A DNA stretch of 64,000 nucleotides, taken from positions 474,853 to 538,852 of the forward strand of contig JAJPKA010000018.1 in NCBI GenBank assembly GCA_021323945.1, written 5' to 3'. Each line of letters opens with the position of its first letter. Within the stretch, counting starts at the first letter, position 1. Shown here one piece after another: positions 3,004-53,332 of this stretch. The DNA is from Pseudomonadota bacterium (GTDB lineage: Bacteria; Desulfobacterota; Binatia; Binatales; Binataceae). A program made the translations under genes and the position numbers. The notes beneath the pieces are model-generated. The model had not been told where the DNA came from. It saw only the letters and a program-made list of their open reading frames with translations, and searched no databases.

Positions 3004-3219
3004 ATGAGTACGGAGAAACACTGCCGGCTCAAGAGGCCAGTGCGAGATCGAGCTGGCCGAACTCACTTTGGTGAAACGGCGCTGATCCTGCGCGAGGTCC
3101 ATAACTTGGGCCGTTTGATGTATTTGGTTCGTTTCGACGACGGAAATACGACCTTCGTGTTCCCTGAGGAAATCGAACTTATTTCGGAACCGGACGGCGA
3201 CGGCCGACACGGCTTATGA
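3004..3219 (+). CDS. Small SH3/KOW-like protein, paralogue of the one at 51094-51342
   Basis: This is a 71-residue protein of unknown function. It has no signal peptide or membrane segment. By eye it matches the protein at 51094-51342 at about 33 of 54 core positions, without gaps. Shared blocks are LKRPVRDR, the LREV-NL segment, FDDG-TTF and FP-E. The pattern of short beta strands with a conserved FDDG turn and an FPxEI end resembles a small SH3/Tudor or KOW barrel, a fold often used to bind nucleic acid or protein; that is inference from pattern only. The start at ATG 3004 precedes the conserved core by six residues. The gene stands alone, with long gaps on both sides. The existence of a diverged paralogue with the same frame supports it being real. 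Confidence 0.75.
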   Translation: MSTEKHCRLKRPVRDRAGRTHFGETALILREVHNLGRLMYLVRFDDGNTTFVFPEEIELISEPDGDGRHGL

Positions 3220-49536: not shown

Positions 49537-50592
49537 ATGCACAATGATTGGCGTGACCTGATCAAACCCAAGGCAGTTGAGTTTGACGACAAAGAGCTCA
49601 CTCCTACATACGGCCGTTTCTTCGCGGAACCGTTGGAGCGGGGCTACGGAATTACGATCGGTAATGCGTTGCGCCGTATACTTCTCTCGTCTTTGCCTGG
49701 TTTCGCCATCACTGCGGTGCGAATCCGCGCAATCGATCCAACTTCCGGAAAATCGAAGGAAGTTTTACACGAATTCTCAACGATTCCGGGCGTTAAAGAG
49801 GATGTCACTGATATTGTCCTCAATCTCAAAGAGGTGCGTTTGCGCTTGCATGAGGGCGACCAGCTGACTGCAACTCTGCATGCAAAGGGCGAAGGAGTCG
49901 TAACCGCACGGGACATTACCGGAGGTCCTAACCTGGAGATCCTGACCCCGGACCAACACATCGCGACGCTTGACAAGGGTGCCGAGTTCGACATGGAGCT
50001 TGTCGTTAAACGAGGACGGGGTTATGTGCCAGGAGAACGCAACGACGAAGACGAGCCGATTGGCACAATTCGCTTAGATGCGGTGTACGCGCCGATACGC
50101 AAGGTTAATTTCGTCGTCACCAATGCGCGCGTCGGCCAACGGACGGATTACGACCGGCTGGCTATTGAAATCTGGACCGATGGCTCTATCTCACCGCGCG
50201 ACGCGCTGACCTACGCGGCGCGGGTGATGCGTGATCAAATGTCGATTTTTGCCGGGCTTGAGGAACAAGTCGAAGAACCCGAGGTTGGCGAGCGGCCGGA
50301 GAGTCGACCAACCTTCAACGAGTACCTGTATCGGCCGGTGGAGGGATTGCCAATTTCCGTACGCGCGTTCAACGGGCTTCAAAACGCCGATATCAAATAC
50401 ATCGGCGAGCTCGTGCAGCGAACCGAGCAGGATATGTTGAAAATCAAAAATTTCGGTCGCAAGTCCCTCAACGAGATCAAGGAAGTCCTCACCGATATGG
50501 GACTTTCCCTAGGAATGCGGCTCGAGAACCTGCCATCGCGCGGCGAACTCGATCGGATGTGGGAGGAGCAGGAGCGGCGCGAGTCAGCATAG
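49537..50592 (+). CDS. rpoA: DNA-directed RNA polymerase subunit alpha
   Basis: The alpha subunit, 351 residues. The N-terminal dimerisation domain contains [20 protein letters not shown] and [17 protein letters not shown]. The C-terminal domain, which contacts UP elements and activators, is [20 protein letters not shown] through [20 protein letters not shown]. The chain is slightly longer than in E. coli. rplQ follows after 20 bp. Confidence 0.99.
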
Positions 50593-50612
50593 GCTCCTGG
50601 GGTATTATCTCA

Positions 50613-51053
50613 ATGCGTCACCTTAATCAAGGTCGAAAACTTAACCGCACTTCGGCGCATCGCAAGGCGCTTCTACGAAACCTGGTGCTGGCCCTGGTCA
50701 AACACGAACGTATTAAGACAACCGATGCCAAAGCTAAGGAATTGCGCCGATGCGCCGAACGGATGGTGACGCTGGGGAAGCGGGGCGATCTGGCGGCCCG
50801 CAGGCAGGCTTTCGCCTTGATGCAATCCCGAGAGGCTGTCAAACGGCTGTTTGATGAGATCGCGCCGCGATTCAAAGAGCGTAACGGGGGCTATACGCGA
50901 ATTGTCAAGTTCGGGTTCCGTCGAGGCGACGCGGCGCCCTTATCGATCGTCGAGTTCAGCGATCATTCCGAGCGGTCAACGCCGCAGAAGCCTCGGAAAA
51001 AGGCGCCACGCCCTCGCAACAATGAGCGGCAGTCAGCAGCCGCCGCCGGTTGA
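50613..51053 (+). CDS. rplQ: 50S ribosomal protein L17
   Basis: L17 ends the alpha operon. The 146-residue protein starts [20 protein letters not shown] and contains [20 protein letters not shown]; about 20 basic, Ala/Asn-rich residues extend the C-terminus. ATG 50613 is used; the frame is open back to 50559, overlapping rpoA. It is convergent with the small gene at 51094, with a 40-bp gap. Confidence 0.97.
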
Positions 51054-51093: not shown

Positions 51094-51342
51094 CTACCCG
51101 GCCTTCGGCGTCGGTATGTCCAAGTCACCCTGCACGATGGTGACTTCATTGGGGAAGAGGAACGTGGTGCTGCCGTCATCGAATTCAACCAAAAACATGC
51201 GACGGTCTAAATTGATCACCTCGCGCAGCACGCGAAGCCTCTCATTGAAGTGACTTACTCCATCGCGATCACGTACTGGTCGCTTAAGGATACAATAGCG
51301 GCCGGCCACAGACTCGGTCGCGTCAACATGCATATTCTCCAT
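51094..51342 (-). CDS. Small SH3/KOW-like protein, paralogue of the one at 3004-3219
   Basis: This is an 82-residue protein of unknown function with no membrane segment. It shares the core LKRPVRDR, FNERLRVLREVINLDRRMFL, FDDGSTTFLFPNE with the protein at 3004-3219, about 33 of 54 positions by eye and no gaps. Conservation of the hydrophobic pattern and of FDDG argues for a folded SH3/KOW-like barrel. The ATG at 51342 has GGAGG ten bases upstream; ATG 51333 is a second option. A weak promoter-like pair (TTGCTA, 17 bp, CAATAA) lies further upstream. It faces the end of the ribosomal cluster. Confidence 0.78.
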   Translation of the reverse strand: MENMHVDATESVAGRYCILKRPVRDRDGVSHFNERLRVLREVINLDRRMFLVEFDDGSTTFLFPNEVTIVQGDLDIPTPKAG

Positions 51343-51565
51343 TCTAAGTGCGCCTCCTGCCCCTCCTGCGCCAGCTTATTGCCACCAATTCTATTTTCTA
51401 GCAAAAATCAGACCCGCCCGGGATTGTCGCCTAGAGTAGCTGACGGAGGTTAATAGGCGCGGATAAAATTTCCAGAATTTGGCTCTTCGCCCAGTTGTCG
51501 GGCGCAACTATCAAATCTTTGCTAATCGCTTTTGCGGCTTTTTGACGGTGAGGGCAACTTACTAA

Positions 51566-53332
51566 ATGACGACGATCTATCCACCTATCATGGGTCGAGA
51601 GGCGATGGTATGCACCGAACACTATCTATCAGCCTCTGCCGGCGCGCGAATGTTTGCGCGTGGCGGGAATGCAATTGACGCTGCCGTAGCTGCTACCTTG
51701 GTAGAAGGTGTTGTCAACCCTCATATGCATACCATCGGCGGTGAGGCACCGATGCTGATTTACTTGGCGAGTGGCAGACGCGTTGTCGCCGTCAACGGCA
51801 ATACGGTAGCGCCGGCTCGAGCCACTCTTGCCCATTATCGAAGCCTGGGTCTTGATCTGATCCCGGGTGAGGGGCTCCTGGCGGCGGGGGTGCCAGCGGC
51901 TTTCGACGCCTTGACCGCAGTCTTGGGACAATTTGGGACGCTAAGTTTGGCGGAAGTTGCAGAACCCGCTTTGAGACTTTGTGAAGACGGCTTTCCAATG
52001 CACGCCGGTCTGAGCGGAGATGGAGACACGCCAGAAGATCTGGCCGGACTGATCGGAAGAGCTTCAATTCGCAGCAACGAACGCAAATTTCGATCAGAGT
52101 GGCCGACCACAGGCGCGATCTACTTGCCTGAGAACCGACTGCCGCGTCCTGGAGACCTCATCAAGAACCCAGCCTTGGCAGGTTTCTTTCGTCGGTTGCT
52201 CGACGCCGAGGCCGGCGCGCGTAAGAGCGGTCGAGAGGCAGCGATCAAGGCGGCTAGAGATCGCTTTTATCGTGGCGACATCGCCCAAGAGATTGTCAAA
52301 TGGTCAAAAGCGAACGGCGGGCTCCTGGAGGAGCACGATTTGGCCCAGTTCATGACAAAGTTCGAGGAGCCGGTGACCGTCGATTACCGCGGAATTGCGG
52401 TACACAAATGTCAACCGTGGTCTCAGGGTCCTGTTTTCCTTCAACAGCTCCGTATTCTGGAAGGTTTCGACTTGAAGAAGATGGGGCATAACTCCGCCCA
52501 GTATATTCATCACGTGGTCGAGGCCGCAAAACTGGCTTTCGCTGATCGCGAAGCATATTACGCGGATCCGCAATTCGAGCAGGTGCCATTAGAGGGCTTG
52601 TTGTCCCGAAGATACGCCGATTTGCGCCGCCGCTTGATTGATCCAAGCGTCGCGTCCATGGAGCAACGTCCTGGCGACCCTGTCGGGTTGCGAGCGTTAG
52701 CAACTCATCGCCCCCAAGCTGGGCGCTGGGATAGCGGTACCATACACGTCACGACGGCCGATCGGGACGGCAATATGGTCGCTTGCACTGCCAGTGGTGG
52801 ATGGATACCTAGTTCTCCGGTAATTGATACGCTCGGTTTCCCGCTTGGCACGCGCGTCCAGACCTTCTACCTCGACGAACGACATCCAAACGTGTTGAAA
52901 CCGGGCAAGCACCCACGGACTACGCTGACGCCTTCGCTAGCGACACGAGATGGGCAACCATTTATGTCCTTCGGTACGCCAGGTGGCGATCAACAAGACC
53001 AGTGGACATTGCAGTTCTTTCTGAACGTGGTCGACTTCGGAATGGGAGTGCAGGAGGCAATCGAAGCACCCAGATTCTCCAGCGCACATTTCCCTTCCAG
53101 CTTTTTTCCGCACGGTTCGATGCCAGGTGTCGTGCGAGTTGAAGATCGTGTCGATAGGAGCGTTATCGACGAACTAGCCAACCGCGGACATCGAGTCGTC
53201 GTAAGGCCCGGATGGTGCGAAGGGCATGTGCTCGCGATTCGATTCGAGCCCGCTAAGCGGCTTCTCGAAGGTGGTGCGGACCCACGAGGTCAGTTGGCGG
53301 TCGTGATGGCGGCACAAGCGATAGGCTGGTAG
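51566..53332 (+). CDS. Gamma-glutamyltransferase-family Ntn hydrolase, cytoplasmic type
   Basis: This 588-residue member of the gamma-glutamyltransferase/cephalosporin acylase family matures by self-cleavage before a catalytic threonine. GNAIDAAVAATLVEGVVNPH and GGEAPMLIYLASGRRV mark the large subunit. The processing site is SGTIHVTTADRDGNMVACT, with Thr392 as the predicted nucleophile, and HPRTTLTPSLATRDGQPFM follows. There is no signal peptide, unlike the periplasmic glutathione-degrading enzyme, so the substrate may be an intracellular gamma-glutamyl or acyl compound. It is followed by a cyclase-family hydrolase after 19 bp, a probable operon. Confidence 0.92.
   Translation: MTTIYPPIMGREAMVCTEHYLSASAGARMFARGGNAIDAAVAATLVEGVVNPHMHTIGGEAPMLIYLASGRRVVAVNGNTVAPARATLAHYRSLGLDLIPGEGLLAAGVPAAFDALTAVLGQFGTLSLAEVAEPALRLCEDGFPMHAGLSGDGDTPEDLAGLIGRASIRSNERKFRSEWPTTGAIYLPENRLPRPGDLIKNPALAGFFRRLLDAEAGARKSGREAAIKAARDRFYRGDIAQEIVKWSKANGGLLEEHDLAQFMTKFEEPVTVDYRGIAVHKCQPWSQGPVFLQQLRILEGFDLKKMGHNSAQYIHHVVEAAKLAFADREAYYADPQFEQVPLEGLLSRRYADLRRRLIDPSVASMEQRPGDPVGLRALATHRPQAGRWDSGTIHVTTADRDGNMVACTASGGWIPSSPVIDTLGFPLGTRVQTFYLDERHPNVLKPGKHPRTTLTPSLATRDGQPFMSFGTPGGDQQDQWTLQFFLNVVDFGMGVQEAIEAPRFSSAHFPSSFFPHGSMPGVVRVEDRVDRSVIDELANRGHRVVVRPGWCEGHVLAIRFEPAKRLLEGGADPRGQLAVVMAAQAIGW

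Follow-up and report, generated by a model that had tools for sequence, protein, structure and literature searches.

The window, a stretch of 64,000 nucleotides from the genome of a soil bacterium of the Binataceae (class Binatia), carries two small genes, here termed copy A (W1) and copy B (W2), together with the neighbours and upstream elements listed in Table 1. A first-pass annotation had described the two as diverged copies of one unnamed protein, and both open reading frames were found at the positions and on the strands that it had given.

Table 1. Positions of the small genes, their neighbours and the candidate elements in the window
Feature	Position	Strand	Remarks
Copy A (W1)	3004..3219	+	71-aa predicted SH3-like small protein; stand-alone; downstream of an alpha-amylase-family gene
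Copy B (W2)	51094..51342	-	82-aa predicted SH3-like small protein; ortholog of the family's gamma-glutamyltransferase-linked copy
rplQ (ribosomal L17) ORF	50559..51053	+	convergent neighbour of copy B; named from protein letters
Second weak GG-N10-GC, copy B upstream	51369..51384	-	score 12, below 12.5; may be chance
Weak sigma-54-type element, copy B upstream	51400..51415	-	GG-N10-GC with TTGCT; score 11/14.5
Gamma-glutamyltranspeptidase (PF01019)	51566..53332	+	divergent from copy B

In the BLASTP alignment, 33 of 57 positions were identical (58%) and 43 of 57 similar between copy A and copy B, without gaps (E 2e-24), close to the 33 of 54 ungapped identities previously counted by eye. When the whole genome (3.74 Mb, 22 contigs) was searched with tblastn, two family copies were recovered, and a profile search returned the same two. 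Between them, dN was 0.31 and dS 3.3 over 54 codons, the latter being near saturation. In near pairs of family relatives, dN/dS was far below 1, as in L070/L073 (dN 0, dS 0.36). Since dN was far below dS in the near pairs, and given the dN/dS of the window pair, the genes are under selection and not chance reading frames. With net charges of -1 and -3 and pI values of 6.4 and 5.3, the two window proteins fall in the neutral to acidic range, and the mean net charge of the family was -1.4.

Distribution of the family and its predicted fold

As judged by a profile of 31 relatives, the family was present in all 35 Binataceae genomes and, elsewhere in the class Binatia, in 8 of 22 genomes. A wider draw of the class, with the best 40 candidates scored per genome, gave matches in 71 of 148 genomes, each with one to eight copies against exactly two in the window's genome; the Binataceae genome G356 had no match in this draw. 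Outside the class none was found among 297 genomes of the phylum, scanned at reduced sensitivity with the best 20 candidates scored per genome, and the sole matches were in six Binataceae genomes. Among the genomes scanned, the family was confined to the class Binatia, as expected for the lineage-specific small protein suggested earlier. At least two family matches occurred in 13 of the 35 Binataceae genomes, the second match being weak in two of these. In a sequence tree of 67 columns, in which 20 of the 50 inner branches were open, copy A grouped with a single copy from each of G002 and G020 (support 94/88).

Assignment to a known family was rejected, since searches of Pfam, NCBIfam, PHROGs, PADLOC and PDB sequences returned sub-threshold matches only (best E 0.002, to Tudor_2, by one member). 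The earlier statement that no family could be recognised was borne out by the curated Pfam and NCBIfam models, every match to which lay below cut-off. A mobile or phage origin was likewise rejected, as no relative was found in plasmids, phages or viral contigs with one query per search. This is a small protein family without a name, and nearly all genomes checked from the Binataceae, a bacterial family without cultured members, contain it.

The AlphaFold2 model, built from 35 sequences, had a confident core at residues 11-70, where pLDDT averaged 85-93 by block, and low confidence at both ends. Strands were placed at residues 16-19, 35-44, 47-53, 59-62 and 67-70, with a short helical turn preceding the last one, and a single-sequence model gave nearly the same strands. 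Invariant in the 31-row alignment were a cysteine of the first strand, a Gly, the turn N-x-x-R and, close to the end, a Phe. Foldseek ranked PetP first (E 0.013, TM 0.53), and its solved neighbours were PetP, Tudor and SH3 domains, all with E values above 0.001. The VIA neighbours were the FTR variable chain, PetP, PsaE, NdhS, SPT5 KOW5 and ribosomal chains at Z 6.5-7.9; all family matches fall below Z 8, where a match may reflect only a common arrangement. A five-strand SH3-like barrel is supported as the predicted fold by AlphaFold2, Foldseek and VIA, so the SH3-like fold once guessed from pattern holds as a prediction. The predicted SH3-like fold does not by itself indicate a function.

PetP (Tsr0524-like, PF11061/NF050003), a regulatory subunit of cytochrome b6f, resembles the family in size and, going by the predicted model, in its SH3-type fold, and shows a weak sequence echo with it in the last two strands. 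However, the PetP models were not passed: one of 31 family members matched at E 0.09, and the PF11061/NF050003 cut-off was exceeded in none of the 38 genomes searched, while one control genome passed. To our knowledge, PetP is neither multicopy nor sigma-54-driven, unlike what is found or predicted for the Binatia family. The FTR variable chain, PsaE and NdhS, which are SH3-type accessory proteins of electron transport, resemble the family in size and predicted fold within the same VIA range, but gave no sequence match to it in PDB searches, and no such complex is tied to the family genes. According to PMC9342900, an SH3-type fold is common to PetP, FTR alpha, NdhS and PsaE, all of which modulate thylakoid electron transfer. 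In PMC8262859, Binatota are described as having complexes I, II, IV and alternate complex III and no reaction centre, and the term SH3 is absent from its main text; since Binatota encode alternate complex III, the cytochrome b6f target of PetP is not expected in them. By analogy, PetP, FTR, NdhS and PsaE may be the closest parallel in possible working, not in membership.

The family also has a short stretch around V-x-F-D-D-G-x-T in common with DUF1918 (PF08940) and Tudor (PF18104, PF18115, PF18359). Against DUF1918, copy A reached 16.9 bits with a gathering cut-off of 24, and none of the 38 genomes scored above it; all family matches to the three Tudor models were below the gathering scores. 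No KOW model appeared among the Pfam matches listed, and SPT5 KOW5 was a fold neighbour at VIA Z 7.1. These weak Tudor and DUF1918 matches, together with SPT5 KOW5 and eukaryotic ribosome chains among the VIA matches (Z 6.6-7.1), would fit a barrel of KOW/Tudor type with nucleic acid or the machinery of transcription and translation as its binding partner, in line with the proposal of the first-pass annotation. We consider this unlikely, as all sequence matches stay under curated cut-offs, the rplQ neighbourhood described below is confined to one genus, and the neutral-acidic charge speaks against a general nucleic-acid binder without excluding one.

Gene neighbourhoods of the family copies

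The first-pass annotation had considered a module that binds the ribosome or RNA polymerase, and copy B lies beside rplQ. The rplQ counterpart in the genus mate G001 was confirmed by Pfam. A family copy by rplQ was found only in G000 and G001, and the pair with gamma-glutamyltransferase beside rplQ was likewise limited to these members of the window's genus; the link to the ribosomal cluster was therefore rejected. The usual partner in Binataceae is a divergent gamma-glutamyltransferase gene, which adjoins 30 of 48 copies, one per genome in 30 of 35 genomes. The comparison of neighbours in related genomes, proposed with the first-pass annotation, thus gave a recurrent transferase setting, whereas the ribosomal setting was that of one genus.

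In many genera, the block around the linked copies also holds Nudix, DsbA-like, universal stress, Fur-family and sigma-factor genes. Other Binataceae copies adjoin archease and MlaC, peptide deformylase and a chlorite dismutase-like gene, or Ku, LigD and a DksA-type gene, and the remaining ones DUF2267, an exonuclease and others. The arrangement of copy A after an alpha-amylase-family gene was not seen elsewhere among the Binataceae neighbourhoods compared, and outside Binataceae the neighbours vary again. No gene context ties any family copy to electron transport. Since the neighbours vary and are unrelated, the gene is a stand-alone unit and the ribosomal cluster a chance neighbour, its apparent tie being a local rearrangement. 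That the two copies flank the ribosomal cluster is true of their coordinates but has no biological content, as they lie in two unrelated contexts.

The recurrent divergent adjacency also raises the reading that the small protein is a functional partner of gamma-glutamyltransferase, sharing its intergenic region and regulating glutathione or glutamyl-peptide turnover. The window transferase starts at the mature domain and has no obvious signal peptide by eye; it may thus be cytoplasmic, and both proteins could share that compartment. However, 18 of the 48 Binataceae copies lie elsewhere or without a transferase, the gene order is kept in G012 with no transferase detected, and no transferase was present at the three class loci searched outside Binataceae. 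We therefore hold such a partnership to be improbable.

Elements upstream of the family genes

Sigma-54 promoters, which depend on RpoN and an enhancer-binding ATPase for transcription, have a consensus with GG and GC 10 bases apart within TGGCACG-N4-TTGCW, and a recurring GG-N10-GC element of this type was seen in the family upstream regions. Candidate sites were scored with our own weights on this consensus (maximum 14.5, threshold 12.5); in an earlier scan, which had broader windows and a somewhat different weighting, 12 was reached by 4.9% of random windows. The second promoter set was fetched later, when score and threshold were already fixed. A fixed rule set the start codons, taking an upstream ATG close to the domain where there was one and otherwise GTG or TTG, and some of these starts may be in error; in the scored counts, from the 71-copy set onward, L054, L059 and L062 start with GTG. 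Two partial matches among the matches listed (G414:C161:11225 and G027:C71:82518) were left out of the promoter sets, and the 31 linked ('GGT') rows include L075, in which the gene order is present and the transferase absent.

Promoter-like elements were enriched before the family genes. Of the 71 copies in the first set, 34 had a site scoring at least 12.5, as did 18 of 53 in the second. The total of 52 of 124 compares with 0-4 when nine alternative spacings were used, with 2 of 124 for the reverse strand and with 9 of 254 upstream of control genes. Fifty of the 52 sites fall 30-110 bases before the start codon, with TGGCACGTGGGTTGCT (L210), TGGCATATCGGTTGCT (L166) and TGGTACGCGTGTTGCT (L157) as examples. 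Since copies from the same genus share ancestry and do not count as independent, sites were also counted per genus, and at least one was present in 27 of 37 genera and in all eight taxonomic families. The sigma-54 DNA-binding domain PF04552 was detected in 57 of 57 genomes, the window's included. We infer that sigma-54 RNA polymerase would bind at these candidate elements and that the genes would be induced from them.

The other 72 of 124 copies had no site scoring at least 12.5, and one f2 subfamily had essentially none. Both window copies were under this threshold. The two best candidates of copy B are listed in Table 1; the lower-scoring one sits where relatives carry theirs, and the corresponding site of the genus mate G001 scores 12.5. 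Copy A had no site (best 9 within 150 bases and 10.5 anywhere in the intergenic region) and may be expressed differently. No shared dyad that could be an enhancer-binding palindrome was found in the family upstream regions. As a separate observation, L068, L076, L079, L035, L038 and L047 keep GGCAC in the -24 half and have TGA, TGT or TGG in place of TGC in the -12 half; in these paralogs the sigma-54 sites are perhaps changed or in decay.

A frequent reading of the -12 part among linked copies is TTGCTATAAT, possibly the extended -10 of a sigma-70 promoter, and the hexamer after the site matched TATAAT at five or six places in 10 of 52 cases. The elements could accordingly be ordinary sigma-70 promoters with an extended -10 that merely resemble sigma-54 sites; we think this has little probability, since the GG-N10-GC spacing is exact, the following hexamer matched TATAAT at three or fewer of six places in 33 of 52 cases, TATAAT is absent from the best sites of paralogs and other families, which read TGGCAC-N5-TTGC, and the G001 ortholog keeps GG-N10-GC with no TATAAT.

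A further element was found before the linked copies. The strict pattern GAA-N18/19-C[GA]TCTAA was present in 16 of 31 linked copies compared to 1 of 224 controls, and three f2-family copies carry it as well. GAA with a 16-17 base spacer and a last part [CA][GA]TCTAA was present in 16 of the 20 linked copies that have the box, and CGTCTAA on either strand was upstream of 18 of 31 linked copies compared to about 1.4% of 218 controls. We presume this GAA/TCTAA element to be an ECF-type promoter. In L032-L080, CGTCTAA was observed about 75-120 bases upstream, mostly just before the -24/-12-like element.

Proposed role and minor upstream motifs

Small size, a lone barrel, charge, duplication, changing neighbours and alternative-sigma promoters together fit an inducible accessory or regulatory protein. 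We tentatively read copies A and B, with a confidence a little short of even, as paralogs in a class-wide Binatia family of stand-alone SH3-like barrel proteins of about 70 residues, which would be induced by alternative sigma factors and dock on a larger partner. Many copies would be switched on by an alternative sigma factor, through putative sigma-54 -24/-12 promoters in all eight families sampled, and the gamma-glutamyltransferase-linked lineage would have an additional ECF-type promoter. The family is preserved by selection and duplicated freely, and its products would be cytoplasmic, inducible accessory proteins. By analogy with PetP, the FTR variable chain, PsaE and NdhS in phototrophs, the barrel may dock on a membrane complex or an enzyme whose activity it would modulate.

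The proteins are of a known kind, although their family has no name, and what is new is a regulatory signature that can be tested: the upstream sequences predict a genetic switch of stress or nutrient type before many of the genes. Should the sigma-54 reading be true, the small genes mark a conserved Binatia regulon whose trigger could be read from expression data, with nitrogen, carbon or envelope state as possible triggers. No paper joining Binatota with sigma-54 or its promoters was found in open-licence PMC full text. A bolder extension, to which we give the smallest chance of the readings considered here, is that Binatia have a dedicated repertoire of inducible SH3-type accessory subunits, rich in paralogs and with every copy under sigma-54, ECF or perhaps, in f2, sigma-28, which would swap onto respiratory or redox complexes and redirect electron flow as a non-phototrophic counterpart of PetP, NdhS, PsaE and FTR.

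Two minor motifs were also observed. Among the 18 copies of the IRSQ-motif subfamily of f2 (L216-L233), eight have a GCCGATA-type element some 55-80 bases ahead of the start, compared to 0 of 106 others, and this element resembles a sigma-28 -10. A flagellar link of the element was rejected, since a flagellin match was obtained in 33 of 148 genomes and its carriers G416, G413, G415, G048 and G411 are not among them. A DnaA-box-like TTWTNCACA was present in 7 of 31 linked copies compared to 2 of 218 controls, and examples were seen by eye between gamma-glutamyltransferase and the small gene in L053, L055, L066 and L074.
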